Below the pieces are notes generated by a model. The model searched no databases. It was not told the DNA's origin and worked only from the letters and a program-made list of their open reading frames with translations. Both the position numbers and the translations under genes were made by a program. A stretch of DNA of 64,000 nucleotides, from the NCBI RefSeq assembly GCF_001586215.1, contig NZ_CP014634.1:186001-250000 (forward strand), given 5' to 3'. Shown here one piece after another: positions 16,647 to 55,745 of this stretch; the first letter of the stretch is position 1, and every line of letters starts with the position of its first letter. The DNA is from Corynebacterium simulans (lineage in GTDB: Bacteria > Actinomycetota > Actinomycetes > Mycobacteriales > Mycobacteriaceae).

Positions 16647-18257
16647 ATGGCCAACTTCAAAGACATCATGGCGATGTGTTTGGACGGGGGAAGCTATGCT
16701 GCCATCTCTGCGGCGTTGGGATGTTCCAACCGGGATATTGCCAAAACCAAGACACTGATTGCGGACCTGAGCATCACCAAGGAGTCGTTTGCTCAGCTGG
16801 ATCCATCATTCTTCGACGAGCACTTCAGCGACCATCGCGGGGCCCGTCGCAAGCGCTACGACCAGCCAGACTTCGAAAAGCTCGCCAAGCGACTAGCCAA
16901 TAACAAGCACTTGACCCGCCACAAGCTCTGGCTGGACTACGTTGCTGCACCTGTCGGTGAAGGCGAGTCGAAGTATCAGTACTCCCAGTTTTGCGAACGC
17001 CTGCGCACCCACATCCGCACCACTGGAATGACCTCGATTATCGAACACGAGCCAGGCCAGGAACTCTATGTCGACTGAGCCGGCGACAAGGTTTCCATCA
17101 TTGACAAGGCCATCGGTGAAGTCGGCATGAAAGCCAGCTTATTCGTGGCCATCTGCCCCTATTCTTCACTGTTGTTTGTGACAGCAACAGCTAACGAGAA
17201 GATGGACAACTGGATTTCCTGCCATGTGAAAGCCTTAGACTACCTCGGTAAATGCCCTGGCATCATCGTTCCTGACAACGCACCGACCGCGACTTATCGG
17301 CCGGTGAAGAACAAGCCCGGCCGGCGCATTCAACAACGCTACGCGGACTTCGCCGACTACTACGACATCCTGCTCGTACCGGCCCGACCTGGAAAACCTC
17401 GGGATAAGGCCGCTGTGGAACGCGCCGTCCAACTCGTCTACTCGCGCATCCTCGGCTACTTCGATGGGATCACCTTCTACAGTCTTGATGAACTCAATGA
17501 GGCTATCGCCCAGCGCGTCGACGACATCAACATGAATATGCCTAGGCCCGATGGGATAACCCGTAAAGAGTTGTTTGATGCTGATGAAGCGCCCATGATG
17601 CGTGACTTACCAGATACCCCGTTTACGGAAGTGTCCTGGCGAAACGTCAAAGTCGACCGTAACTGGCACATCTGCTGCGACTACCAGTACTACTCAGTGC
17701 CGTTCCAATACATCGGCAAAACCCTGCGGGCACGGCTGACCAACAGCCTGGTGAGCATCTTCGACGGCGACGACCTAGTCGCAGAGCACTCACGTATGCA
17801 CGGGTTCAAGTACCGCTATTGCACTGACCCAGCCCATACCCCGGATAAGGACATTGCCGGGGTCAAACCTCTTACCCGTGACGAGCTGCTTGCTCGAGCA
17901 TCATCATTTGGGCCGGCAACGGCCAAGGTCGTCTCCTCAATTTTGGAACGCAACGCCAAAGCCGTACCCCGCGGGCTACACACTGCCCGCAACGTGCTCG
18001 TCAAGCTGGGCAACAAGCACAACAAGACCACGCTTGAGCCTGCCTGCCAGCAAGTCATTGACCATAGCCTGGCACCCAACATGCAGGTCATCGCGCGGAT
18101 TCAGGCCGACATCGCCCGCAACGGTCACACCCTCAACCAAACGCCAGCCGTCCAGGCCGATCACGCCCAGTCGCGCATTGTGGATATCACCGCAATCCCT
18201 GATGCAGTATTCCTGCGCCCAGCCAGCCACTACGACATCCCGAAGAAGGAGGCCTAG
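16647..18257 (+). pseudogene. istA: IS21 transposase istA, interrupted by an in-frame TGA
   Basis: Both parts are in the same frame, 537 codons in total. The first 143 codons hold the helix-turn-helix region (AAISAALGCSNRDIAKTK) and end at ELYVD. The next codon is TGA (17076-17078) where IstA proteins read Trp in YVDWAGD, and the frame continues AGDKVSIIDKA. The remaining 393 codons hold the rest of the DDE integrase core (Asp in IIVPDNAPTA, Glu in KAAVERAVQLVY). A single TGG-to-TGA change explains it. A sequencing error remains possible. The product is either a 143-residue fragment or needs readthrough. Confidence 0.93.
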
Positions 18258-18263
18258 ACCATC

Positions 18264-19031
18264 ATGACCACCATCAACCTTGACGATGACATCCGAGCTA
18301 CACTGCGTAAACTGCGTCTTTCCACCTTCGCTGATATCTTTTTCGACCTAGTCGCCGCCGATGACGCCAACACCGCTCTACCGGAGGAAATCTTCCTCAA
18401 AGCCGTGGAAGAAACCGCGGCCAAGCGCCGGCAAACCAACATCGCAAAAGCCATCACCCAGGCGAAATTCCGCTATCCGGGAGCAACACTCGCCGAGCTG
18501 ATCAACCCAGATGAACGAGGGTTGAATCTACGCCAGCTCAAACGACTAGCCGCAACACCCTGGCGCGACGAACCTTCCAATGTGCACGTCCTAGCGCCCA
18601 CCGGTGCGGGTAAAACCTACATCGCCTGCGCTATCGGTATTGCTGCTTGCCAGGCTGAATACAGTGTCGCGTACTACCGGCTGGATCAGCTCGTCGATGA
18701 ATTAGGGGCCTTCCTGCCAGCAGATGAACGCTATGTAGCTAAAATGCGCAAGCTACAAAACATTGATGTACTCATCCTCGATGATTTCCTGACCATAGGA
18801 ATCAACCAGCGCGGACAAGAAGACCTAACCAAGATCATATTCGACCGCGACGGCAGACTGCCGACCATCATCGTCTCCCAGACAACCGCCGCCTACTGGG
18901 TGAAGAAACTACCCGACCCCATCGGCGCGGACTCACTGGTCAGCAGACTCAATGCCGGACAGCGCATCGAACTCGGCGACTACGACATGCGCCAACACCT
19001 GGCAAGCGCCACATATGGCGCCAACGAGTAG
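18264..19031 (+). CDS. istB: IS21 helper ATPase IstB
   Basis: IstB is a DnaC-like AAA+ ATPase that selects target DNA and stimulates IstA. Walker A is APTGAGKTYIACA at about 111-123 and Walker B is VLILDDF at about 171-177. The protein is intact at 255 residues, the usual size. The ATG lies 6 bp after the istA stop, with GAAGGAGG upstream. Since istA is broken, IstB is probably without its natural partner unless another copy exists elsewhere. Confidence 0.94.
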   Translation: MTTINLDDDIRATLRKLRLSTFADIFFDLVAADDANTALPEEIFLKAVEETAAKRRQTNIAKAITQAKFRYPGATLAELINPDERGLNLRQLKRLAATPWRDEPSNVHVLAPTGAGKTYIACAIGIAACQAEYSVAYYRLDQLVDELGAFLPADERYVAKMRKLQNIDVLILDDFLTIGINQRGQEDLTKIIFDRDGRLPTIIVSQTTAAYWVKKLPDPIGADSLVSRLNAGQRIELGDYDMRQHLASATYGANE

Positions 19032-19907: not shown

Positions 19908-21407
19908 CTACTGCTGCGCGGGCGCCTGGAACGGCGTGACAGCCAGAGCGGCACGCAAGCGATTGAGGGTGGACTCCTTGCCCAGGAGCTCCATGGACTC
20001 AAACAGTGGCGGGGAGACCTGCTGGCCGGAGATAGCTACGCGCAAAGCACCGTAGGCCTTGCGCGGCTTCAGCTCAAGCTCCTCAATGAGGGCCTTGGAC
20101 AGTACGGTCTCAATGGCATCCGTCTTCCACTCCTCCAGCTCCTCCAAGCGAGCAATGGAGACCTCCAGCGGCTGCACCGCATCTTCCTTGAGGTTCTTCT
20201 TTGCAGACTTCTCGTCGAGCTCCAGCTCGGCATCCGGAGTAACCAGGAAGCTCATGAGGCCATAGGCATCGCCAAGCATCTTGATGCGGGTCTGTACCAG
20301 GTCTGCCACGAAGGCAAACTTTTGCTCGTCATAATCAGCCGGGAAATCGGTGTACTCGGTCAGGTAATCACGCAGACGCTGCGCGAAGACCTCGGGCTCC
20401 AGCAGGCGAATGTGATCGGCGTTGATAGCCTCCAGCTTCTTCTGGTCAAAACGAGCCGGGTTACCCAGAACGTCTTCCACATCGAAGTTCGCAACGAGCT
20501 CGTCCACGGAGAAAATGTCCTGATCCGCAGACAGGGACCAGCCCAGCAGGGACAGGTAGTTGAGCATGCCCTCCGGAATGATGCCGGCGTCGCGGTGATT
20601 AAAGAGGTTGGACTGCGGGTCGCGCTTAGAAAGCTTCTTGTTTCCCTCGCCCATAACGAACGGCAGGTGGCCAAATTCCGGGGTCTGCTTAGCGATGCCG
20701 AGTTCCTTCAGCGCCTCGTACAGCGCCAGCTGACGCGGAGTGGAGGAAAGAAGGTCCTCACCGCGCAGAACGTGCGTGATACCCATCAGCGCGTCATCGA
20801 CCGGGTTAACCAAAGTGTAAAGCGGTGCGCCGTTGGAACGTGCAACGACGTAGTCCGGCTGGGTCTCAGACTTGAAGGTCAACTCACCACGAACGAGGTC
20901 CTTCCAGGTCCAATCCTGCTCCGGCATGCGCAGGCGCCACACTGGTTTGCGGCCTTCCGCCTCGAATGCCGCAATCTGCTCGTCGGTGAGATCGCGGTCG
21001 TAATTGTCGTAGCCCAACTTTGGGTCACGGCCGGCCGCCTTGTGGCGCTCTTCTACCTCCTCGGCAGTGGAATAAGCCGGGTAGACGTAGCCACCCTCCT
21101 TCAGCTTCTCCAGAACATCGGCATAGATGTCCATGCGCTGGGACTGGCGGTAAGGCTCGTGCGGACCACCTGTCACAACGCCCTCGTCCCAGTCCATGCC
21201 CAGCCACTTTAGGGAGTCAATGATGGCCTGGTAGGACTCTTCGGAGTCACGTGCAGCGTCGGTGTCTTCGATGCGGAAAACCAGCTTGCCACCAGTATGG
21301 CGCGCGTATGCCCAGTTAAAAAGCGCAGTACGAACCATGCCCACGTGCGGGGTGCCGGTGGGCGATGGGCAGAAACGTACGCGTACGTCAGAAGTAGTTT
21401 CAGTCAT
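19908..21407 (-). CDS. gltX: Glutamyl-tRNA synthetase
   Basis: GltX is a class I synthetase that charges tRNA-Glu. In organisms lacking GlnRS it also mischarges tRNA-Gln, which GatCAB then amidates. The HIGH-type motif reads [19 protein letters not shown] near residue 10 and the KMSKS-type motif [12 protein letters not shown] is near 250. Of the ATGs at 21416 and 21407, the latter begins [12 protein letters not shown], the usual opening; the product is 499 aa. It lies upstream of tRNA-Gln and tRNA-Glu, so the enzyme sits beside its own substrates. Confidence 0.97.
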
Positions 21408-21557
21408 GCCCACCATGGTAATGCAGTCTCTTTAAGCCAGTGCCACCACCCAACTCCCGTCACTTCCACGGCTTCACCCAAAATGGGGTAACTGAAAATA
21501 GAATTCAATAGTTTCTGCCAGCGGTTTCACAATCTACATCAGGCTGCTCAAACAAAA

Positions 21558-21577
21558 TGGAAACTATTTTCTATAGT
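21558..21577 (+). promoter_or_regulatory. Candidate promoter and AT-rich operator of the anchored-repeat locus
   Basis: TGGAAACTATTTTCTA (21558-21573) is an imperfect palindrome (GAAAcTAtTTTC core) overlapping a -10-like TATAGT (21572-21577). A related dyad GAAAATA...TAGTTTC lies at 21494-21515. Such AT-rich dyads resemble Fur/Zur-type operators. A match to the Zur consensus is inference from memory. Confidence 0.4.
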
Positions 21578-21616
21578 GAAGGCCTTGGATCAGAACTGAA
21601 GAAAGGTCTCCACGCT

Positions 21617-23962
21617 GTGGCACGTTCTCGCACCCGCTACCTAGCCATCCTTACTACTCTCTCGCTTATCGCCCCGGCACCGGCCTTCGCCGGGCCCGAC
21701 GACGGAAAGGCAATCGCCACACAGGGACACGTCGATTCCCCCAAAACATTTTGGGAAGACGATAACTTCACGCTCAAGTCTGAGCATAACTCCACCACCA
21801 CAGACCTAGCAGACACCGTCGCGTGGATCGGCAAGGGCTGGAATATCGACGGAGGAAACCAATACCAATTCACTCTGCCGGACAACGGCGCTTTCGATTT
21901 CATTGGTCAAGCACGCAAGACCTACTACACGGCACCAGCCAACATCTTGGGCAGCGCCGATCCAATCTGGCTTGGCTTCGGCGCGGATTCCGGGCTGCCT
22001 GAAGATGACTTCCGCGATAACTTCGCCTCGCTCGACATCCTCTCGGTAGACGGTCCTGGCGATTTCGAGCTTTTCAGGTATCGCGACTCCGAGGGCGGCC
22101 TCGACCGCTTCATCGGCACCACGCCGAACTCCGCGTATTCTTCGATGCTGCACGCAGGCTCCCACACCCATAACTACACGCTTTTCACCAAGCCTGGCCG
22201 CTACGAGGTCACCTACCGCACCACCGCGCGTAAGAAGGACGGCACGCTCGTCGCCTCGGAGCCGACCACCACTTCCCTACAGGTAGGAGGCATGAAGCCT
22301 GCCGATAACACGACTCCTTCCTTGCGGGAGCGCTACGACGCCGCGACTGACGGCGATGCCTCTGCGGCAGGCTACAAGCTCGACATTTCGCCGAAGTCCA
22401 ATCCTGAAAAGGACGGCGACAAGAACCTGTCCACCATCAGCTTCAATGCAGAAAACAAGGCTTCAGGCACGCTGACGCTGCTTATCGACGGCTATTTCCT
22501 CACCGATCTGCCTGTAACCGATGGCCAGGCCGAGTGGGACGAATTCCTGGGCCCGGAAAAATCGAACATCCAGGCCGTCTTTACTCCGGAAGGCTCGGAA
22601 CCACGATGGATCTCGCAACAGGTTGAATACGCTCCAGGCGCAACAAATTCGACGGATTCGACCAAGTCTGCCGATGCGTGGGAAGAAACCCACAACGTGC
22701 GCAAGCTTGCGCCGCAGGAGGAGATGACTCCAACGAGCAAGAAGTTTCAGGCCAAGATTGAGCCGGCCGGCAAGTCTGCATCCAAGGTCGTCGTCGATAC
22801 TGAGGACAAGAACTTCAATGGCTTTATCAGCGGCGGCTTCTACAAAAACGACAGCGATATCGCCACTCTTGATTTCACGGGCGCTGTTACCAACGGCCAC
22901 GGCGAGTTCCTTGTGGACGAGGCGACCTTTTATAACGACTACAAGCTCAAGTTGACGCTGAACCCGCATCCGACGGTCAAAGCGGAGTCCGGCTCGGTCG
23001 TCGTCGCTGATTCCTATGCCTTCGGTAAGACCTTCGAAAAGGACGGTGCTCTGGGTACTTCCCCACAGCACCAGGACGCCGACAAGCGTGAGGAAGGCGA
23101 GAAGGAAGAAGGCGCTGCCGATCCTTCAACCACGTGCAACGAAAAACTCGTCCTGAACCGCGGCCACATCGACATCATGGCCACTCGAAAGGACGATCAC
23201 TTCGATCTGCGTCTCAAGGACGAAACCAACATCGGTGCAAACAAGATGGTGATGCGCCGGCTTGACGACGTCGTGATTTCCGTGCGCGACAACGCCCTGA
23301 TGAAGCGCCCCGAAAAGTTCGGAGGTGCCGAGTACGACTTCATGAACCCAGTCGGCGAAAAGACTTATGTCTTGCCGCAAACGCAGAACCGCGACATCAT
23401 CTGGCCGGGCTACAACACTGAGAAGCTTGATTATTCGCAGTTCAAGGACGGTAAGGTGCACCTGAACCTGCAGCCAAAGGAGGTGCCGGAAGGCGCCACC
23501 TTTGGCATGTGGACCACCGGCGGTCTCGGCGGCAAGGACCAGGTTCTCATGGATTCGAGCAAGGACGACTTCACCATCGATACCGTCTTCGCATCACACG
23601 CCCACACCAACTGGGCCTTCAGCAAGCCAGGCGTCTACAAGTTCGACGTGACCTACACCGCCACCACCACCGACGGCAAGAAGGTCGAATCTGAGCCACA
23701 AGAGCTGCTATTCACCATCGGCGACGAGGCCACCAACAACTGCGGTAAAGACAAGCCAGCACCGAAACCAGAGCCCAAGCCGCAGCCGAAGCCGCAACCC
23801 AACCCAGAGAAGGAAGGTTCTTCTGCTGAAGGTTCTTCCTTCAACCCGTGGAGTCTGGTGCTCCCGCTCGTGCTGGCGACCATCTTCCAGGCGGCGCTGA
23901 ACTTCATCCATGATCACCGCGCGGAGATTGATTACTGGGTAAAGGGAATCACTGGCCGCTAA
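21617..23962 (+). CDS. Secreted surface-repeat protein (choice-of-anchor M type), two repeats
   Basis: The frame is open from ATG 21557. GTG 21617 is preferred: AAAGG lies 10 nt upstream, a signal peptide (about 1-30, cleavage after AFA) follows at once, and a promoter-like element covers 21557. The 781-residue protein has two copies of the actinobacterial surface-anchored repeat. Each begins with GH(V/I)D (about 37 and 516) and ends with a histidine motif (SHTHNYTLFTKPGRY near 180, SHAHTNWAFSKPGVY near 660). A divergent middle region of about 270 residues separates them. A Pro/Lys linker (about 712-735) leads to a hydrophobic segment and an unusual 25-residue tail. First gene of the transporter locus. 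Confidence 0.88.
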   Translation: MARSRTRYLAILTTLSLIAPAPAFAGPDDGKAIATQGHVDSPKTFWEDDNFTLKSEHNSTTTDLADTVAWIGKGWNIDGGNQYQFTLPDNGAFDFIGQARKTYYTAPANILGSADPIWLGFGADSGLPEDDFRDNFASLDILSVDGPGDFELFRYRDSEGGLDRFIGTTPNSAYSSMLHAGSHTHNYTLFTKPGRYEVTYRTTARKKDGTLVASEPTTTSLQVGGMKPADNTTPSLRERYDAATDGDASAAGYKLDISPKSNPEKDGDKNLSTISFNAENKASGTLTLLIDGYFLTDLPVTDGQAEWDEFLGPEKSNIQAVFTPEGSEPRWISQQVEYAPGATNSTDSTKSADAWEETHNVRKLAPQEEMTPTSKKFQAKIEPAGKSASKVVVDTEDKNFNGFISGGFYKNDSDIATLDFTGAVTNGHGEFLVDEATFYNDYKLKLTLNPHPTVKAESGSVVVADSYAFGKTFEKDGALGTSPQHQDADKREEGEKEEGAADPSTTCNEKLVLNRGHIDIMATRKDDHFDLRLKDETNIGANKMVMRRLDDVVISVRDNALMKRPEKFGGAEYDFMNPVGEKTYVLPQTQNRDIIWPGYNTEKLDYSQFKDGKVHLNLQPKEVPEGATFGMWTTGGLGGKDQVLMDSSKDDFTIDTVFASHAHTNWAFSKPGVYKFDVTYTATTTDGKKVESEPQELLFTIGDEATNNCGKDKPAPKPEPKPQPKPQPNPEKEGSSAEGSSFNPWSLVLPLVLATIFQAALNFIHDHRAEIDYWVKGITGR

Positions 23963-24018
23963 ATGGGCCCTGACCGTTCCTAAACCGCATTTGTTAATTG
24001 CAGAGGACTTAAATAGTT

Positions 24019-25104
24019 ATGGACACACTCTCTCCTATGCCGTCCCGGGTCGTACCTCGGCCTGCGCTTTACCGTCGCACCCTGGGCTGGTTGTTTACGG
24101 TGATGCTCGTAGTCTTTTCGATGCCGCTTGCTGCGGCGCAGGCCCAAGAGACGGAATTTGATTCCGGTCACGTCGACGTCTTCTACGTCACTGCGCCGGA
24201 TGGCCAGCTCTCACTGTCGATGAAGGAAGACATCACCGGCTCAGAGGTCGAGCGTCCCGGCGATGACGTAGTGTTGCGGGTCAACGAAAACGCGTGGTCT
24301 GATGCCACCGAGAGCGTGGACGCCATCGGCACGCCCACGTACTTTCTGCCGCAGACCCAGAAGTCGGACATCATCTGGCCGGGCTGGGATACCCAGAAGG
24401 CACAGCAAGCAGGCTACAAGGACGTTGACCTCAACTTCGTGGATGTTAGTGGGCCTGGTGCGGTCTACATCTTTGAGACAACGGGCTTCGGTGACATTGA
24501 ATCTGTTACTGACTCCGGTGACTTGGAGCTGCGCAGCGGCGAGGTCATCAATCAGCCCTACCCTGCTCATCGCCACGTCAACTGGGCGTTTAGCGAGCCA
24601 GGTACCTACACCATGACCGTGCAGGCTTCTTCTAATGGCGATACCAGTAACAAGGTCACCTACACCTGGTCCGTAGGTGATGGTGAAGCCGCAGGCGAAG
24701 AAGATGGAGAATACGTTGAAGACGAGGACTTCGACGACGTCGAGGGCGAATCCGATTCCACCGATTCGGATGCCGAGTCCGACGGGCATTCTGCCTCGGC
24801 AGGTTCCTTGTCTTCTGCTGGTGGAGCACTAGGCGGTGCCAATGCAAGCGGCAATCGTGCGGCTTCAGGTAATCACTCTTCGGGCAAGCCCGGCCGCGAA
24901 AAGTCGCGCAAGCATGTGCGTCGGGGCCACAAGTCGCACTCGGGTGCGCAGGAAGATGGCTCGGATGTGGCTTTGCAATCGGCGGGCAACGACTTCGTTG
25001 AAGCCCCCAACTACCTGCCGTGGGGCTTGGGGTTGCTCGGCGTTGGCATGTTGATGCTGGGCCTTGGTGTTATGCGCTGGGTGCTGGCGAAGGTCCAGGA
25101 CTAA
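24019..25104 (+). CDS. Membrane-anchored surface-repeat protein, one repeat
   Basis: This 361-residue protein has a signal peptide (about 1-43, cleavage near AQA) and one surface repeat. The repeat starts FDSGHVDVFYV, has YFLPQTQKSDIIWPGWDTQ in the middle and ends AHRHVNWAFSEPGTY. An acidic Glu/Asp/Ser-rich stretch follows, then a basic segment (GREKSRKHVRRGHKSHSG). A C-terminal membrane helix (about 332-355) with a short KVQD tail anchors it in the membrane. No LPxTG is seen. Its TAA overlaps the next gene's ATG by one base, so translation is coupled to the solute-binding protein. Confidence 0.87.
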   Translation: MDTLSPMPSRVVPRPALYRRTLGWLFTVMLVVFSMPLAAAQAQETEFDSGHVDVFYVTAPDGQLSLSMKEDITGSEVERPGDDVVLRVNENAWSDATESVDAIGTPTYFLPQTQKSDIIWPGWDTQKAQQAGYKDVDLNFVDVSGPGAVYIFETTGFGDIESVTDSGDLELRSGEVINQPYPAHRHVNWAFSEPGTYTMTVQASSNGDTSNKVTYTWSVGDGEAAGEEDGEYVEDEDFDDVEGESDSTDSDAESDGHSASAGSLSSAGGALGGANASGNRAASGNHSSGKPGREKSRKHVRRGHKSHSGAQEDGSDVALQSAGNDFVEAPNYLPWGLGLLGVGMLMLGLGVMRWVLAKVQD

Positions 25105-26588
25105 TGCTGCACCGAAACAATCGTTGGGCTGTCGCGTCGTCGCTAAGCGCCGTGGCTCTCATAGCCGGCTGCGCGGCCCCAGGTGTTGGGCAGGCGCCGG
25201 AGGGCCTGAATGTCGTGGCGACAACGCCGATTCTCGCGGACGTCATTAGCCACGTTGCAGGCGAAGACGCCAACGTCACCACCCTTATCCCCGCAGGTAA
25301 AGACCCACATACCTTTGAGCCTTCGCTGCGCACCATCCGTAACGCGGCGAACGCGGACGTCGCGTTCGCAAACGGCTATCTGCTTGAGCCGCAAGGGCTC
25401 ATGGATACTTTGCGGGAGACCACGCATGTCCCGGTTATCGAGGTCGCAGACCAAGCTTCCACCCGCGGCGCAAAGCTCGTTCCGCTCGTGGAAAACACTG
25501 CCCTCGATACCGTGTGGCTGGGACTGCGCATCCAGGATGCCCCGGCCAACTCGCACGCGGTGGAGCTCAGCATGGTCTCTGCCGAGGGTCCCGGTGACGT
25601 GGCAGCTTACGTGGTCTCCACCTTCGGTACGCCGGAGGTGCTGTTCAACAGCGCGGACGGTATCAACGATCATGAGGACACCGCCCGCTTGCCCGCTAAC
25701 GCGCACACGCATGTCTCGTGGGGCTTTTCCAAACCCGGTATCTATCGCATTGGGTTTAAGGCCCACTCTGAAGACGGCGATACCGCGGTGCAAAATATCA
25801 CCGTCGCCGTGGGCGTTAATCCCCCAGAAGGAATGCGCGCACACGATGAGGGGCACGTGGACATCACAGCGAATATCGCAGCGGGGTCCATTGATCTGCA
25901 GGATAACGGCGCCCACTTCGATCCCAACACCACTGCGGTAGCTTTGCCTTCTTCAACATTGCAGCCGATTCCGCCGAATCCGGCGTATCGCTTCTTGGGC
26001 CGTCCGGGCAGCGAGACCTATCTCCTGCCACAAGCCGTGCTGGGCAAGCACATCCATGGCGAGGTTGACCCACACCTGTGGCACAACGTCGACAATGTCA
26101 TCGCAGAAACCGAGGTGGTGGCCGATAACCTCGCGCTGGCAGACCCCACCCATGGTGCGGCCTACCGCGAGCGCGCGGCGTCGTATATCGAGCAGCTGAA
26201 GGAGACCGACGCTTTCGTTGCCGAGCAAATAGCCTCCATCCCGCAGGCCCAGCGCCATCTGGTCACGCCGCATCACGGCTATGCCTACCTGGACCAAGGC
26301 TACGGCATGCAGGTCGCAGGCTTTATCACCCCGAATCCTGCCATCGAGCCCTCCCCGCGCGATGTCATTGCGCTGCGCAGGACGTTGGAGAACCTGCACC
26401 TACCAGCCGTTTTTGTAGAGCCGACACAACAAGCAAGCACGGCAACACTCACCGAGGCAGCCGCGCAACAAGGAATCCGCGTCTGCACCATCTACGGCGA
26501 CACGTTGGATGAAAAGGCTCCGACGTACATCGACATGATGCGTACCAATGCGCAGACGCTCCACCGCTGCCTTAACCCTTCGCCCTAA
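25104..26588 (+). CDS. Anchored-repeat ABC transporter solute-binding lipoprotein with embedded surface repeat
   Basis: The 494-residue lipoprotein (lipobox LIAGC, Cys 23) belongs to the ZnuA/TroA (cluster A-I) metal-binding family. Family ligand positions are visible: H69 in KDPHTFEPS, H324 in VDPHLWHN, H390/H391 in TPHHGYAY and E439 in VFVEPT. Residues about 131-315, where ZnuA has its His-rich loop, are replaced by surface-repeat sequence. That insert contains NAHTHVSWGFSKPGIY (about 199-214) before EGHVDITANI (about 249-258), the reverse of the order in the other repeat proteins. Its start overlaps the upstream stop (TAATG). It should deliver a divalent metal, or a ligand bound through one, to the permease. 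Confidence 0.92.
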   Translation: MLHRNNRWAVASSLSAVALIAGCAAPGVGQAPEGLNVVATTPILADVISHVAGEDANVTTLIPAGKDPHTFEPSLRTIRNAANADVAFANGYLLEPQGLMDTLRETTHVPVIEVADQASTRGAKLVPLVENTALDTVWLGLRIQDAPANSHAVELSMVSAEGPGDVAAYVVSTFGTPEVLFNSADGINDHEDTARLPANAHTHVSWGFSKPGIYRIGFKAHSEDGDTAVQNITVAVGVNPPEGMRAHDEGHVDITANIAAGSIDLQDNGAHFDPNTTAVALPSSTLQPIPPNPAYRFLGRPGSETYLLPQAVLGKHIHGEVDPHLWHNVDNVIAETEVVADNLALADPTHGAAYRERAASYIEQLKETDAFVAEQIASIPQAQRHLVTPHHGYAYLDQGYGMQVAGFITPNPAIEPSPRDVIALRRTLENLHLPAVFVEPTQQASTATLTEAAAQQGIRVCTIYGDTLDEKAPTYIDMMRTNAQTLHRCLNPSP

Positions 26589-26633
26589 CCAGTCACACCT
26601 AAAGAAAATCTCTGAGAAACAAGGAATCCACAA

Positions 26634-27569
26634 ATGAATTCAACTTCCGCGAAAGCCACTGGGCCGCTAAGTCGCATCCTCGCGAGTGCGACGGTGGTCT
26701 ATGCGTGCTTGGCCGTTCTAGCTGCGATCTTGGTAACCTCCGCCATCCCGGCGCCTAGTGCATGGGCTGGTGACCTCGCCCAGGTGGTCAAAGACGACGA
26801 AGAATTCGCTCCGGCAGGCACCGAAGCAATCATCGACCATGGCCACGTGGACGTCGGCGCGCAGTTTACAGGCGAAGGCGCGCACTTCCTCGCGCGCGAC
26901 GATTCCGCAGCCACACCCGTATGGCGCGAGCTTGACGACGTCGTGTTCAAAGTAGGCGACGAAGCCCAACTCGCGCTCCCAGACGATGAGCAATTCGGCT
27001 TCGTCGGCGGCAATGCCGGCGAGAACGTCTGGGTCATCCCGCAGACAGAGCAAGCAGGCGTTCCCTGGGTGGGCTGGAATACCCAGGCACCCTCGCTTAT
27101 CGATGCCGCCGACCGCGGCGTGAACATGGAGTTCCTCGGTCACACCGGCCCGGGCGAGTTTTCGCTCTTCCTCCAAAATGGCGGCTTCGAAGCACCCCAG
27201 GTGCTCTGGTCCACCGCTAAGAACCAGCGCGAGGATTTCTGGGTAGACCTCAACACCCATACCCACGCCAACTGGGTTTTCACTGAGCCGGGCATCCACC
27301 AGGTGGGTATCCGCCTTAAGGGAAAGACCAAAAATGGAGAAGACTTCAGCACCGACGGCATTTTGACCTTCGCGGTTGGAGCAGAGACCGACGTGACTGA
27401 GGCCAACGCCACCGAGTGGGATCAAGAGGCTGCTCAAGAAGGCTCCTCTTCCTCCATCGCTGGATGGATTTGGGTATTGCTCGGAGCCGGCGCAGTCGTG
27501 CTTATTGTCTCGGCTTTCCTTCTTATCCTTGCAGCGCGCAAGAAAGGCAAGCATGCCGACCAAGACTAA
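26634..27569 (+). CDS. Membrane-anchored surface-repeat protein, one repeat
   Basis: The 311-residue protein has a long N-terminal signal (about 1-45, ending SAWA-GD) and one surface repeat. The repeat starts IDHGHVDVGAQF, has VWVIPQTEQAGVPWVGWNTQ in the middle and ends THTHANWVFTEPGIH. A C-terminal helix (about 278-300) with a KKGKHADQD tail anchors it. The linker is shorter than in the neighbouring anchored proteins. Its 3' end overlaps the ATPase start by 17 bp, which ties it to the transporter. It probably displays the repeat close to the membrane beside the solute-binding lipoprotein. Confidence 0.87.
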   Translation: MNSTSAKATGPLSRILASATVVYACLAVLAAILVTSAIPAPSAWAGDLAQVVKDDEEFAPAGTEAIIDHGHVDVGAQFTGEGAHFLARDDSAATPVWRELDDVVFKVGDEAQLALPDDEQFGFVGGNAGENVWVIPQTEQAGVPWVGWNTQAPSLIDAADRGVNMEFLGHTGPGEFSLFLQNGGFEAPQVLWSTAKNQREDFWVDLNTHTHANWVFTEPGIHQVGIRLKGKTKNGEDFSTDGILTFAVGAETDVTEANATEWDQEAAQEGSSSSIAGWIWVLLGAGAVVLIVSAFLLILAARKKGKHADQD

Positions 27570-28293
27570 GGAAGCACTGATAGATCTAGAACACGTGCGC
27601 GTGACCTTGAGCGGGCGCCGCGTTATCAACGATGCATCGCTGCGCGTATACCCTGGCGAATTCATCGGTCTTTTAGGCCCCAACGGCGCCGGCAAGACGA
27701 CGTTGATGCGCTCAATCCTGGGCTTGGTTCCTGCCAGCGGGCACATTCAGTGCGCGGCGTCGGTGGGTTATGTGCCACAGCGTCACGACGTAGAGTGGGA
27801 CTTTCCCATCAACGTCTATCAGGCGGCGTTGAACGGGCGCACGGGTTTGATTGGGTGGTTCCGCAGGCCCCGCGCCAAAGACCACGCGGCAACCAAGCGC
27901 GCGCTGGAGCTGACGAACCTCACGCACTTGGCAAAGCGGCCCATCGCTGAGCTTTCCGGTGGCCAACGCCAGCGCGTGCTCATCGCGCGCGCTTTAGCCA
28001 CAAATCCGCAGGTGCTCCTGCTTGATGAGCCTTTCACGGGTCTCGATGCCCCCAATACGGAGGCGTTGCTCTATCTTTTCGACGAGCTCTGTGCAGGTGG
28101 CACGAGCATCATCATGTCCACCCACAATCTGGCGGAGGCTGCGCACACGTGCCAGCGCTTGGTGCTATTCAATAAGGAAATCACTGCGGATGGCCCTGCT
28201 GAGCAAGTGCTTGGCGACGCCGCCGCCTGGACCGCCGCCTTCGGCGTCAGCACCGATTCCCCGCTCCTTTCCGCGATTGGGGTGGCCGCATGA
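27553..28293 (+). CDS. Anchored-repeat-type ABC transporter, ATP-binding subunit
   Basis: This is a ZnuC/MntB-like ATPase. Walker A is GPNGAGKTTL at about 39-48, the Q-loop is GYVPQRHDVEWDFPI, the signature is LSGGQRQRVLIARAL, Walker B is VLLLDEPFTGLD, and the switch is MSTHNL. The frame is open from 27505. ATG 27553 with AAAGG upstream gives the normal 246 aa and starts just before the conserved IDLEHVRVTL strand. It overlaps the repeat protein before it by 17 bp and the permease after it by 4 bp. Confidence 0.95.
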   Translation: MPTKTKEALIDLEHVRVTLSGRRVINDASLRVYPGEFIGLLGPNGAGKTTLMRSILGLVPASGHIQCAASVGYVPQRHDVEWDFPINVYQAALNGRTGLIGWFRRPRAKDHAATKRALELTNLTHLAKRPIAELSGGQRQRVLIARALATNPQVLLLDEPFTGLDAPNTEALLYLFDELCAGGTSIIMSTHNLAEAAHTCQRLVLFNKEITADGPAEQVLGDAAAWTAAFGVSTDSPLLSAIGVAA

Positions 28294-29156
28294 TCGAGGT
28301 CTCCCTGTTTGATTTCTTTAGCGATCTGGCTAACCCGCAGCTAGACTTCCTCGCTCGCGCGGTGGGTATCTCGATGCTGTCTGCGGTGGTCTGTGCCGTG
28401 GTGGGCTGCTACGTGGTGCTGCGCGGTATGGCTTTCATCGGCGATGCTGTCTCCCACGCGGTGTTCCCGGGCCTGGCGGTTGCTTTTGCCCTGCAGGGAT
28501 CCATCCTGCTGGGTGGGGCGGTTGCCGGCACGGTCGTAGCATTGCTCATCGCTTGCTTTTCGCAGCGCCGCAGCGTGCGCGCCGACTCCGTCATCGGAAT
28601 CTTCTTTGCGGCTTCCTTTGCCCTCGGCATGGTGATCATCTCTCGGACTGAGGGCTACACCGCATCGCTGACGAGCTTTCTCTTCGGCACCTTGACCGGC
28701 GTATCGAAAGCGGACCTCTACACCGCCGCTGCAGTCACCGTGATCATCGTGGGCCTCATCGCATTGCTTGGTCCACAACTTACGGCCAACTGCCTAGACA
28801 AGGAAACGGCACGCGCAATGGGCCTTCCCGTTTTCGCCCTCGACATCGTGCTCTACCTCTGCGTAACCGGCGCGGTGGTCATCTCGGTGGGAACCATCGG
28901 CAACATCCTGGTGCTGGCACTGCTTATCACTCCCGCGGCTACTGCCCGCCTGCTAACCAACTCACTGGGCACGATGATGCTCACCTCCAGTGCCATAGGC
29001 ATCTTCGCGAGCTTCACCGGCATCTACTTGGCGTGGGCCATCGACCTACCAGCGGGCGCCACCATCGTGCTCGTGCTTACCGCCCTCTTCCTAGTGGCAT
29101 GGGCAATCTCCCCGCTTCTTCAGAAGAAGACGTCCGAATCCAAGACCAACTCATAG
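28290..29156 (+). CDS. Anchored-repeat-type ABC transporter, permease subunit
   Basis: This is a 288-residue ZnuB/MntC-like permease with about eight hydrophobic segments. The family segments FIGDAVSHAVFPGLA, near residue 50, and GNILVLALLITPAATARLL, near 205, are visible. It starts within the ATPase stop (ATGA at 28290), as usual for such pairs. With the solute-binding lipoprotein and ATPase it makes a complete importer. The family is metal-transporting, but no substrate is shown by sequence. Confidence 0.95.
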   Translation: MIEVSLFDFFSDLANPQLDFLARAVGISMLSAVVCAVVGCYVVLRGMAFIGDAVSHAVFPGLAVAFALQGSILLGGAVAGTVVALLIACFSQRRSVRADSVIGIFFAASFALGMVIISRTEGYTASLTSFLFGTLTGVSKADLYTAAAVTVIIVGLIALLGPQLTANCLDKETARAMGLPVFALDIVLYLCVTGAVVISVGTIGNILVLALLITPAATARLLTNSLGTMMLTSSAIGIFASFTGIYLAWAIDLPAGATIVLVLTALFLVAWAISPLLQKKTSESKTNS

Positions 29157-29171
29157 AGAGGACTACCCCAC

Positions 29172-30527
29172 ATGATTTTCTCGCACTCCCGCGTACCACG
29201 CACCGTCGTCGCCCTCGGCGCTGCCACCTTCCTCGGCCTTTCCGCACCACAGGCTTTCGCGGAGGATACCTGCGCCGTGATGGATAGCTACCACATCGAA
29301 AAAGGCCACCAGGATGCCGCAGTGCGCGACGACGACGGCCCGCTGCGCTTTACCGTAGACGACGACAGCACCGGTGAGCACGTCGAGCGCGATTCCCGCG
29401 ATTTCGTCGTGGTAGTCGATGACAACATGACGGGCTCTCTCGACGAGCTAGGCTTCCCCGGCATTTCTGGCGATGCATGGCTGCTTCCCCAAGACCAAGA
29501 CCATGACCGCCCGTGGTTCGGTTTCTCGCTGCTGCACCTTTCGAACATGACTGAGGATGAAACCGCTCAGCTATCCATGGAGCTTCACGACGCACCTGAG
29601 GGCGGCCGCGTCCTCGCTTGGCAAACCGGCGACTTGAGCGACTCAGAGCTCAAACTCGATAGCGAAGACCCGAGCATGACATGGGATTACCCACGCTCCC
29701 ATACCCACGTCAATTTCGGCTTCACCCAGCCGGGCGCCTACGCCGTCACTTTTACCTTCACCCTCCCGGACGGCTCCGAGCACTCACTCGACGCCCCGTT
29801 CCTCGTGGGCAATTCAACCGATGATTCAGAGCTCTGTGAGCTCGATTGGGGCGGCAGCTCCGCAGGCAACTCTGGCCCAAAGAGCAAGGCTGGACAGTTG
29901 ACCACTGACATCAACGATACCGCAAAGGCCATCGGCACCCTCGACAAGGCCCTCGATAAGACCCTCGACGAGGCCGACAAGATGGTTGCCACGGAGGCGC
30001 CTAAAGCCAAGTCTGACAAGAGCAAGAACGAAAGCAAGAACAAGACCGAGCAAAAAGACAAAGACAAGGCCAAGGACAAGTCCAAGGCCAAGGACACCAC
30101 CAAGGCCCAAACCGAAAAGAAGGCTGCTAACCCGCAGCCACAATCGACGCCAGGCGGCACGGTTATGGGCAGCAAGCCAGCAGTCCGCTCGGCTAATACG
30201 GCAGGATCCACTAACACAGGAACCAAGTCAGCACCGTCGAAGTCCGAACAAAAGGAAACAGAGAAAAAGAAGAAGGCGTCGGCAAGCGCACACCGCCCCG
30301 GACGTGGAAATAGCCTTGCCACCGAAGACGGACAAGGCTATGTAGAAACGGATGCGCAAGAATTAAGCTATGGCGTCCCGATGCTCAACTTCTGGGCCGG
30401 CGTTCTCTCCGGTATCGGTGCATTCGCATTGCTTTTGGGCACCGGTTTGTTTATTTGGGCCCAGTTCTTCCGCAAGCCAAAGCGCAATCAGTCACAGGAA
30501 CTAGGCCAAACCCAGCAGATCCTTTAG
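29172..30527 (+). CDS. Membrane-anchored surface-repeat protein with long Lys-rich stalk
   Basis: The 451-residue protein has a signal peptide (about 1-31, ending AFA-ED) and one surface repeat (EKGHQDAAVRDDDG ... WLLPQDQDHDRPWFG ... SHTHVNFGFTQPGAY). A region rich in Lys, Ala, Thr and Ser of about 150 residues follows, starting with a possible coiled coil (TAKAIGTLDKALDKTL). A membrane helix (about 405-428) with a basic tail ends the protein. The stalk could span the cell wall. The gene is 15 bp after the permease. Its stop codon directly abuts the stop of the convergent esterase gene with no gap. Confidence 0.87.
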   Translation: MIFSHSRVPRTVVALGAATFLGLSAPQAFAEDTCAVMDSYHIEKGHQDAAVRDDDGPLRFTVDDDSTGEHVERDSRDFVVVVDDNMTGSLDELGFPGISGDAWLLPQDQDHDRPWFGFSLLHLSNMTEDETAQLSMELHDAPEGGRVLAWQTGDLSDSELKLDSEDPSMTWDYPRSHTHVNFGFTQPGAYAVTFTFTLPDGSEHSLDAPFLVGNSTDDSELCELDWGGSSAGNSGPKSKAGQLTTDINDTAKAIGTLDKALDKTLDEADKMVATEAPKAKSDKSKNESKNKTEQKDKDKAKDKSKAKDTTKAQTEKKAANPQPQSTPGGTVMGSKPAVRSANTAGSTNTGTKSAPSKSEQKETEKKKKASASAHRPGRGNSLATEDGQGYVETDAQELSYGVPMLNFWAGVLSGIGAFALLLGTGLFIWAQFFRKPKRNQSQELGQTQQIL

Positions 30528-31646
30528 TTACTTGCGCTTATCCGAAAGGAAGTTCCACACCTCGTTCGAGGTGTCCGGCTCGTACCACCAGGTGTGGTCG
30601 CCCTTGACCTTGAGGAGCTCAACGTTTTTCAGGCAGTTGTTAAAGCGCAGGCGCTCAGCCATTGGGCCGTTCTGCTCAGCCTGGAAAGTCATATCGCAAC
30701 GGTTGCGTTTGAGGTAGCCGCCAAGAACCTCACGAACCGGTAGGTAGCCGGCCTCATGGCGGATGCCGCCCTCGTACTGCATCATGCGGTCATTCACTCC
30801 GTGCATGAGGAGGGTGTGCATCGGGGCGTCAACGCAGTTCTGCTCGACCGGATTGTAGAAAGCGCCGGAGACGGTTGCCACAGCAGCGAAGGTCTCCTGC
30901 GCGTGGCAGCCCAGAACAGAAGTAAAGCCGCCGCCATTAGACATTCCCATCGCATAAACGCGGGAGCGGTCGACGCGGTAATCCTTGTCGACGTCGTCCA
31001 AGATGCGCTGAATGAAGCGAATATCCTCGCCGTCGTGAGTCTTTGCATACGGCGCAGCCTCCCAAGCGCGCTCGAAGCCCTCAGGGTAAACGATGATCGC
31101 TTCCTTAGCGGCGCCAGTATTTCCCATGCGGTTGTAGCTGGAGAAGTTCTCTGGGGAATCCTCCCAACCGCCGAAGCCGTAGAGTACCGGTGCTGCCACG
31201 TCCGGGTTGTAGTTGTTCGGGATCCGCAGCAGGTAGCGGCGAGTTTTGCCCTCGTGCTCCATGTTGATAGAACGCATCTGGCCATTTGAAATCGGCTGAA
31301 CTGGGTTCACGGTCGGGTCCGCTGGGACTACCGGCTCAGCTGGCGCGGCAGGATTATCATTTTCTGGCGGCAGCTGCGGCTGAGTTGCCAGCTCAGGCGA
31401 TACGGCCGGGGTCGATTCCTTAACACCTTCAGGAATCAGATGAGAGCCATCAGCCGTAGGAGCAGGTGCAGGTGTAGGTGCAGGTACCGGGGCTGGCGCA
31501 GGGGCCGGAACGGGTGCGGGAGCTGGTGCCGGAGCAGGCGCTTCCTGAGCGGCGGCGAAACCAGGCGCGCTGACGACGATGGCCGCGGCGGCGAGGGATA
31601 CCGCTGAACGTTTGAGCTTATTCATCCAGCTTTGCGGGCTAAGCAC
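30528..31646 (-). CDS. Secreted alpha/beta-hydrolase esterase (PHB depolymerase/feruloyl esterase-like)
   Basis: After a signal peptide (cleavage near AAA-QE) comes an Ala-Pro-Val repeat stretch of about 30 residues and a Pro-rich linker. The catalytic domain of about 250 residues has the nucleophile elbow GMSNGGG, a likely Asp in HGVNDRMM and the His in GDHTWW. This fits the LpqC/PHB-depolymerase family. AAGGAG lies 6 nt upstream of GTG 31646 (372 aa), so I prefer it over ATG 31625 or more distant starts. The Ala-Pro stretch probably crosses the cell wall. Natural substrate unknown. Confidence 0.87.
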   Translation of the reverse strand: MLSPQSWMNKLKRSAVSLAAAAIVVSAPGFAAAQEAPAPAPAPAPVPAPAPAPVPAPTPAPAPTADGSHLIPEGVKESTPAVSPELATQPQLPPENDNPAAPAEPVVPADPTVNPVQPISNGQMRSINMEHEGKTRRYLLRIPNNYNPDVAAPVLYGFGGWEDSPENFSSYNRMGNTGAAKEAIIVYPEGFERAWEAAPYAKTHDGEDIRFIQRILDDVDKDYRVDRSRVYAMGMSNGGGFTSVLGCHAQETFAAVATVSGAFYNPVEQNCVDAPMHTLLMHGVNDRMMQYEGGIRHEAGYLPVREVLGGYLKRNRCDMTFQAEQNGPMAERLRFNNCLKNVELLKVKGDHTWWYEPDTSNEVWNFLSDKRK

Positions 31647-31756
31647 CTGGGACTCCTTGGGTAGGGAAAAGATCACTGTTGACACAGTAATCACACTTTT
31701 CACACAGGCCTCATTCAACACACGGAATTCTGTCAATTTTCTCCAAGGAAGTAAGC

Positions 31757-54630: not shown

Positions 54631-55626
54631 TTAGTTATTAAACGATTCGGTATCAATTACGAATCGGAACTTGACGTCACCTTCGACCACGCGATCGTAA
54701 GCTGCGTCAACCTCGTCTACATTCACCTTCTCGATGACTGCACCCAAACCATGCTCCGCACAGAAGTCGAGCATCTCCTGAGTCTCGCCGATGCCACCGA
54801 TGTTGTTGCCCGTAAGGACCTTACCGCCGCCCACAATTCGGCTGAGCTTCAGCGACATTGCCTCCGGTGGCAGGCCAACCACGGACATAATGCCGCGTGG
54901 CTTCAGCAGCCCAAGGTATCCCTCAAGATCGTACTGCGCCGAAATCGTGGAGAGGATGAAGTCGAACTCACCACGGTGGTTGCTGAAGAAGTCCTCTTCC
55001 TCAGAGGTTGCGAGCGTGCGGTGTGCGCCAAGCTTCTTCGCTTCTTCTGCCTTGCGGGAAGTACGGGAGAGCACGGTGACATCTGCGCCCTTTGCAGCAG
55101 CAATCTGGACGCCCATGTGCCCCAAGCCGCCGAGACCGACGATAGCCACTTTGTCCCCCTCCTTGACGTTCCAGCGCGCCAGGGGCGAGTAGGTGGTGAT
55201 GCCTGCACACAGCAGCGGTGCGGCAACGTCGAAGTCGAGCCCGTCTGGAATGCGCAGAACAAAGTTCTCGTTAACAACGACCTTTTGCGCGTAGCCGCCC
55301 TGGGTAATGGTGCCGTCGACGTCTTTAGAGTTATAGGTGCCAACGTAACCGTTCAGACAGTTCTGCTCCATGCCGGCCTGGCACTGCTCGCACTCGCCGC
55401 AGGAGTTGACGAGGCAGCCGACACCGACGCGGTCACCAACCTTGAACTGGGTGACCTTTTCGCCCACTGCGGATACGACGCCCGCAATCTCGTGACCGAC
55501 GGTCAGCGGGAAGTGAGCCTCTCCCCACTCGTTACGAATGGTGTGAATGTCGGAGTGGCAGATACCCGCGGCCTTGATGTCAATAACTACATCATCCTCG
55601 CGCGGGTCGCGGCGCTCGATTTCCAC
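54631..55626 (-). CDS. Zinc-dependent alcohol dehydrogenase; N-terminus interrupted by an amber codon
   Basis: A medium-chain dehydrogenase of the AdhA/cinnamyl-alcohol type. Catalytic zinc ligands are in GICHSD, TVGHE and PLLCAG; structural zinc cysteines are in CLVNSCGECEQCQAGMEQNC; the NAD(P) motif is VGLGGLGHMGVQIA. The conserved frame continues upstream as TKALQKTSPDAPFKV, but a TAG at 55672-55674 interrupts it three codons after an ATG (55683, M-P-I-stop). The only in-frame start after the TAG is GTG 55626, with a weak, too-close AAGG. The gene may therefore be expressed poorly as a 331-residue form lacking the first strand, or be a recent pseudogene. Confidence 0.8.
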   Translation of the reverse strand: MEIERRDPREDDVVIDIKAAGICHSDIHTIRNEWGEAHFPLTVGHEIAGVVSAVGEKVTQFKVGDRVGVGCLVNSCGECEQCQAGMEQNCLNGYVGTYNSKDVDGTITQGGYAQKVVVNENFVLRIPDGLDFDVAAPLLCAGITTYSPLARWNVKEGDKVAIVGLGGLGHMGVQIAAAKGADVTVLSRTSRKAEEAKKLGAHRTLATSEEEDFFSNHRGEFDFILSTISAQYDLEGYLGLLKPRGIMSVVGLPPEAMSLKLSRIVGGGKVLTGNNIGGIGETQEMLDFCAEHGLGAVIEKVNVDEVDAAYDRVVEGDVKFRFVIDTESFNN

Positions 55627-55745
55627 GACCTTGAATGGTGCATCGGGAGAGGTCTTCTGAAGTGCTTTAGTCTAAATTGGCATGGGAACCACCCTACGCC
55701 TGTTTTCATTACCGGCGCCTAATGAAAATGGCTCCCAAAACTCAA

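Follow-up and report, generated by a model that had tools for sequence, protein, structure and literature searches.

The locus raises two linked questions: what does its transporter import, and what do the surface proteins encoded beside it contribute? It occupies positions 21617-30527 of a 64,000-nucleotide stretch of the Corynebacterium simulans genome (contig NZ_CP014634.1, positions 186,001 to 250,000; the whole stretch is referred to here as the window), and the initial annotation described it as a complete anchored-repeat ATP-binding cassette (ABC) transporter locus with unknown substrate. From the protein families, a Zur-type site, a permutation and conserved ligands, all computed here, we conclude that the locus is probably a zinc-scavenging importer that is switched on through Zur at zinc shortage, with the M domains of its surface proteins and lipoprotein forming a proposed relay. 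An importer of this kind has already been studied in C. diphtheriae; what is new here is the apparently permuted M domain of the lipoprotein together with a different operon layout. That domain and the Zur-type site are additions to the initial annotation.

The locus comprises seven rightward open reading frames (ORFs) without internal stops, which together specify a metal ABC importer and four secreted M-domain proteins:

orf1, 21617-23962, + strand: secreted protein with two M domains and a C-terminal hydrophobic segment; GTG start
orf2, 24019-25104, + strand: secreted protein with one M domain
orf3, 25104-26588, + strand: binding lipoprotein of the ZnuA/AztC class (TIGR03772)
orf4, 26634-27569, + strand: membrane M-domain protein in the ZnuE position
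orf5, 27553-28293, + strand: ATPase (TIGR03771; NCBIfam match given from 27550)
orf6, 28290-29156, + strand: permease (TIGR03770)
orf7, 29172-30527, + strand: secreted protein with one M domain and a C-terminal hydrophobic segment

Genes overlap at 25104, 27553-27569 and 28290-28293, and the remaining spacers measure only 56, 45 and 15 bases, which upholds the single gene unit proposed at the outset; the earliest possible start in the orf5 frame is 27505. The ORFs and the NCBIfam matches also agree with the roles originally given to the seven genes. All three core proteins exceeded the curated cut-offs of the anchored repeat-type ABC transporter (orf3, TIGR03772, 597.7 bits versus 350.45; orf5, TIGR03771, 314.4 versus 268.8; orf6, TIGR03770, 389.2 versus 296.8), and their Pfam matches (ZnuA, ABC_tran and ABC-3) bear out an importer core of the ZnuABC/MntABC class. 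The cut-offs of NF038134 (choice-of-anchor M) and TIGR03769 were passed by orf1 (in two stretches), orf2, orf4 and orf7, and also by orf3 itself (88.4 versus 55 and 39 versus 30.9 bits, respectively). Six of the seven TIGR03769 matches in the genome lie at this locus, all above cut-off; the seventh is a weak match in an immunoglobulin-repeat protein. The expected correspondence to TIGR03769-TIGR03773 thus held for the first four models but not for TIGR03773, whose cut-off of 190.3 bits was reached by none of the surface proteins (orf1, 180.8; orf4, 159.6; orf2, 126.8; orf7, 70.8), and in this respect the locus differs from the described transporter type.

For comparison we used a species collection that gave 438 pattern matches; 401 of these proved to be relatives, of which the best 80, Conexibacter and Micromonospora included, were kept. 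At least three of the surface proteins had been said to end in a membrane helix and a basic tail; a C-terminal hydrophobic segment is present in all four, and the tail, judged by eye, is clear in orf4 and orf7 and weak in orf1 and orf2. None of the four carries an LPxTG-like signal in its last 70 residues, and the genome has five sortase matches. Among 252 surface M proteins of the 80 related loci, 203 have the hydrophobic segment and only 60 have both segment and LPxTG-like signal. M proteins of such loci may therefore often be anchored to the wall without a known sortase signal; ZnuF of C. diphtheriae is wall-bound independently of all six known sortases (PMC12445094).

The label of unknown substrate is out of date. 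Work by others has shown that the C. diphtheriae counterpart, znuAECB-znuFG (troA-dip0445), is zinc-repressed through Zur and, with five other zinc-linked loci deleted, still gives wild-type density in zinc-limited medium (PMC6711530, PMC12445094); it was already part of a predicted Zur regulon (PMC2823685). Growth at low zinc requires the membrane M protein ZnuE, whose His residues are important for it (PMC12445094), and M-domain proteins of C. diphtheriae shift with zinc in thermal assays in vitro (PMC6711530, PMC12445094), supporting the metal role first suggested for the surface repeats. Nothing in our analysis pointed to haem or another ligand as the substrate. The C. diphtheriae protein P0071 is 51% identical to orf3; its H63, H317 and H383, the values printed for ZnuA, occupy the positions of H69, H324 and H390, and its HxH-HxD gap, 45 residues as printed for ZnuA, aligns with H201/H203 and H251/D253. 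Orthology of orf3 with ZnuA thus holds at residue level. Its nearest named relatives are in Corynebacterium sp. HMSC036D03 (98% identity) and C. striatum (81%).

Both loci have the A-E-C-B core order, with an M protein between binding protein and ATPase, and both have HxD/HxH surface proteins; the Zur control shown there is predicted here. They differ in that two surface genes precede the core here, in that ZnuG has a sortase signal there, and in their flanks, which are rpl/rpo genes there and a Glu/Gln-tRNA synthetase gene and an esterase here. They differ also in the placement of the Zur-type sites, which in C. simulans stand only at the front:

21555-21575, no strand: main Zur-type site, 26.2 bits, best in the 64 kb window, 62 bases before the orf1 GTG
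21490-21510, no strand: second Zur-type site, 19.6 bits, third best in the 64 kb window

The next best site inside 21301-30700 scores only 6.8 bits, and the second Zur promoter of C. diphtheriae, which serves the downstream surface genes, therefore has no evident counterpart here. These scores come from a motif trained, with the window excluded, on the sequence preceding the run of genes, which was long enough in 76 of the 80 named related loci, using two published sites as seeds; the search converged on TAATGAAAATnATTTTCATTA. Sites of at least 9 bits occurred in 56 of the 76 loci versus 29 of 760 random stretches from the same loci. When 24 shuffled seeds were run as a control, 11 ended at this motif too (mean scores 16.2-16.4), and the means of the other 13 did not exceed 13.8. 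Allowing at most two mismatches, a degenerate pattern matched six places in the genome (one for the reversed-pattern control), the sole exact match being this locus; others lie beside a ZigA-like GTPase (412.9 bits, cut-off 600) and beside a lipoprotein with AztC and ZnuA model matches below cut-off, and one has no clear zinc link. The main site also bears on the start of orf1, whose frame has its first ATG at 21557, upstream of the GTG at 21617. Among the 76 related loci in which the distance from site to start was measured, it is 65-66 bases in seven (L071-L075, L080 and L082) and different in the others; because the site overlaps the ATG and the spacing is similar in those seven loci, the GTG originally chosen is supported. 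Overall, the sequence evidence for a predicted Zur control of the operon is strong.

Elsewhere in the genome, one pattern match lies just upstream of an AztD-like His-rich lipoprotein gene (328.5 bits, cut-off 400; locus L153, genome C1:528157, 1528-2844), whose product is possibly a further zinc chaperone in the same cell. Another lies beside the alcohol-dehydrogenase-like gene of the window (54631-55626, - strand; no model over cut-off), upstream of which stands the second-best Zur-type site of the window (55720-55740); a link between adhA and Zur is on record for both C. diphtheriae and C. glutamicum (PMC6711530, PMC2823685). The single Fur-family match of the genome (locus L010, 1468-2304) follows an ORF that looks ArsR-like by eye, an arrangement resembling znr-zur of C. 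glutamicum (PMC2823685).

In what form, then, does an M domain lie within the binding lipoprotein? We built a canonical M-domain profile from 321 copies (316 from related loci and 5 from the window) and applied it to 81 binding proteins (those of the 80 loci and of the window). On orf3 it matched as two pieces in swapped order, profile positions 72-188 at residues 129-237 followed by positions 4-74 at residues 248-311:

25488-26036, + strand: predicted permuted M domain in orf3, residues 129-311 (C-half 129-237, then N-half 248-311)
25704-25712, + strand: HxH of this domain (H201, H203), invariant in 63/63 and 81/81
25854-25862, + strand: HxD of this domain (H251, D253), invariant in 63/63 and 81/81
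26049-26057, + strand: HxH (H316, H318) between the insert and the second transport-site ligand, kept in 81/81; block 311-320 has a mean predicted local distance difference test (pLDDT) score of 54

By strict criteria 73 of the 81 binding proteins have the swapped order; the remaining eight are swapped too, with shorter C-half matches, and none has the canonical order. A profile with its columns rotated at position 74 outscored the canonical one in all 81 (median +40.3 bits, the profile being spanned in 80) and in none of the 321 surface copies (median -67.8 bits), which are the copies that built the profile. The curated model NF038134 behaved likewise on orf3, placing its positions 74-182 at residues 120-240 (69.6 bits) and 3-73 at residues 240-315 (26.7 bits). 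AlphaFold models of orf3 and orf4 (mean pLDDT 89.6 and 87.8) correspond by eye in 16 strands and one helix, in rotated order, with HxH and HxD in corresponding strands; for one short helix of orf4 (153-158) the binding-protein model lists no counterpart. The M domain inside the lipoprotein thus appears, in all 81 members examined, to be circularly permuted. It is connected at both ends to the loop that immediately precedes the second ligand of the transport site (H69/H324/H390/D466), and index arithmetic places the insert at the D-loop of AztC, which AztD needs for zinc hand-over. The HxD and HxH of C. diphtheriae ZnuA have been noted to occur in reverse order (PMC12445094), and they do so because the M domain is, as predicted here, permuted; the main text of that paper contains no word starting with circular or permut, and our literature search found no report of M-domain permutation.

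It is improbable that each swapped half instead finds its partner in another molecule, or that the two are left over from a tandem pair of M domains. Tandem M arrays, the usual source of such remnants, do adjoin the lipoprotein gene, and the arrangement is known from sequence and a predicted model. But the two halves cover the domain exactly once, with the N-half ending at profile position 74 in 81/81; in the model they form a single unit, predicted with high confidence; none of the four ligand residues is lost; and the linker in the lipoprotein, of 8-18 residues, is shorter than those of tandem arrays (median 78, minimum 16).

The permuted domain suggests how the parts of the zinc importer might work together. 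The importer core would consist of the AztC/ZnuA-like lipoprotein orf3, permease orf6 and ATPase orf5. At wall and membrane, the M domains of orf1, orf2, orf4 and orf7 would bind zinc, with their HxD/HxH residues as the most likely ligands, and zinc on the surface domains would pass to the membrane protein orf4. From there it would move to the lipoprotein's own permuted M domain as an acceptor stage, then over the flexible HxH (H316/H318) to the H69/H324/H390/D466 site, and finally through orf6. We infer every one of these transfer steps, and their order. The lipoprotein would on this proposal be a two-site zinc relay in one chain, its permuted M domain, at the AztC D-loop position, receiving zinc by domain-to-domain exchange with surface M domains and handing it over through the invariant flexible HxH; we put this forward tentatively, rating it below an even chance.

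Several observations weigh against zinc import, Zur control or the relay. In twenty of the 76 related loci no site reaches 9 bits. Among the 13 shuffled seeds that did not converge on the Zur motif, 12 still covered 45-57 of the 76 loci, and the locus count alone therefore cannot separate it from other AT-rich motifs; the exact match at this locus is partly by design, because the pattern was written after the window's site was known. Curated Azt cut-offs were not reached (AztC, 185.7 versus 350; AztB, 203.7 versus 280; AztA, 165.1 versus 220 bits), and H390, His in 80 of 81 binding proteins, is Ser in one. AztC tops the structures nearest to orf3, with manganese-binding proteins tied within 1 Z unit, and the best PDB sequence match is MntA of Listeria. 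These last two results would suit an MntABC-class importer of manganese (or iron) with zinc as a side effect, which we nevertheless regard as very unlikely: the upstream site is of Zur type (scored against a Zur-type motif only), the third ligand, His, aligns with a Glu of Listeria MntA, and the counterpart has a published zinc phenotype and zinc repression (PMC6711530, PMC12445094).

The remaining objections concern the relay and come from C. diphtheriae, where single znuF or znuG deletions have no growth effect, znuA deletion has a modest one, and ZnuE with three His residues changed to Ala still shifts with zinc (PMC12445094), and the HxD/HxH residues are therefore not proven as the zinc site; the passages of the two znu papers used here contain no measured zinc transfer (PMC6711530, PMC12445094). 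Moreover, deleting the znuF operon (znuF-445) restores growth to a transporter-less strain, and plasmid-borne znuF or znuG reduces the growth of cells that lack the transporter. Sequestration and storage are the options offered by the authors for these results (PMC12445094), which either would fit. The surface M proteins of a zinc importer could accordingly be a zinc store or buffer at the wall, the permuted domain only tuning lipoprotein affinity or docking to orf4. We consider this possible, if on the unlikely side: ZnuE and its His residues matter for low-zinc growth (PMC12445094), and all four HxH/HxD residues, superfluous in a pure docking part, are kept in 81/81. The initially suggested capture and relay by surface repeats is thus plausible but unproven, with ZnuE needed and ZnuF and ZnuG dispensable.

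Other zinc systems offer partial parallels to the proposed relay. AztABCD of Paracoccus denitrificans includes AztC, first among the structures nearest to orf3, and is Zur-linked, and an AztD-like gene with a Zur-type site exists in this genome, but a predicted permuted M domain of ~180 residues stands here where AztC has a short D-loop, and AztD is a beta-propeller. In streptococci, Pht surface zinc proteins are proposed to deliver zinc to the binding lipoprotein AdcAII (PMC12445094). The Pht motif is HxxHxH, whereas that here is HxD/HxH. To our knowledge, AdcAII has no M domain. In simulated genital secretions, the ten most strongly induced genes of Gardnerella vaginalis include related ones, according to a paper whose main text does not contain the word zinc (PMC11979175); a Cutibacterium acnes study lists related genes with an RNA-seq change, beside ribosomal L28 and S14 genes, and quantitative PCR that varies between repeats.

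The TIGR03772 cut-off was passed by 117 of 242 genomes of the genus and, in a draw of 396 from the phylum as a whole, by only 3, one of them this genome. Around the core, the number and position of M proteins vary among the 80 loci; a single-M protein lies within 400 bases after the binding protein in 60 of them, as found with a simple ORF caller. The binding protein P0082 (C. urealyticum, ~853 amino acids) and its relatives are ~350 residues longer than usual. At the edges of the C. simulans locus, an IS21-type pair (an rve/Mu-transposase-C protein and IstB, window 17127-19031) and the 3' end of the tRNA synthetase gene are ~0.9 kb apart, and a convergent Pro/Ala-rich esterase-like ORF (30528-31736, - strand) abuts the end of orf7 without a spacer.

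The swapped order is found in binding proteins of genera that include Corynebacterium, Cutibacterium, Gleimia, Brevibacterium, Micromonospora, Nocardioides and Conexibacter, and lessons from one protein should therefore hold widely. The predicted permuted M domain, present in every family member examined, makes a zinc relay testable, and a locus once flagged as having an unknown substrate becomes a probable zinc system with a concrete hand-over model. If the model is true, copies of one domain would form a chain from wall to membrane, the last copy being fused, in permuted form, into the importer's receptor.
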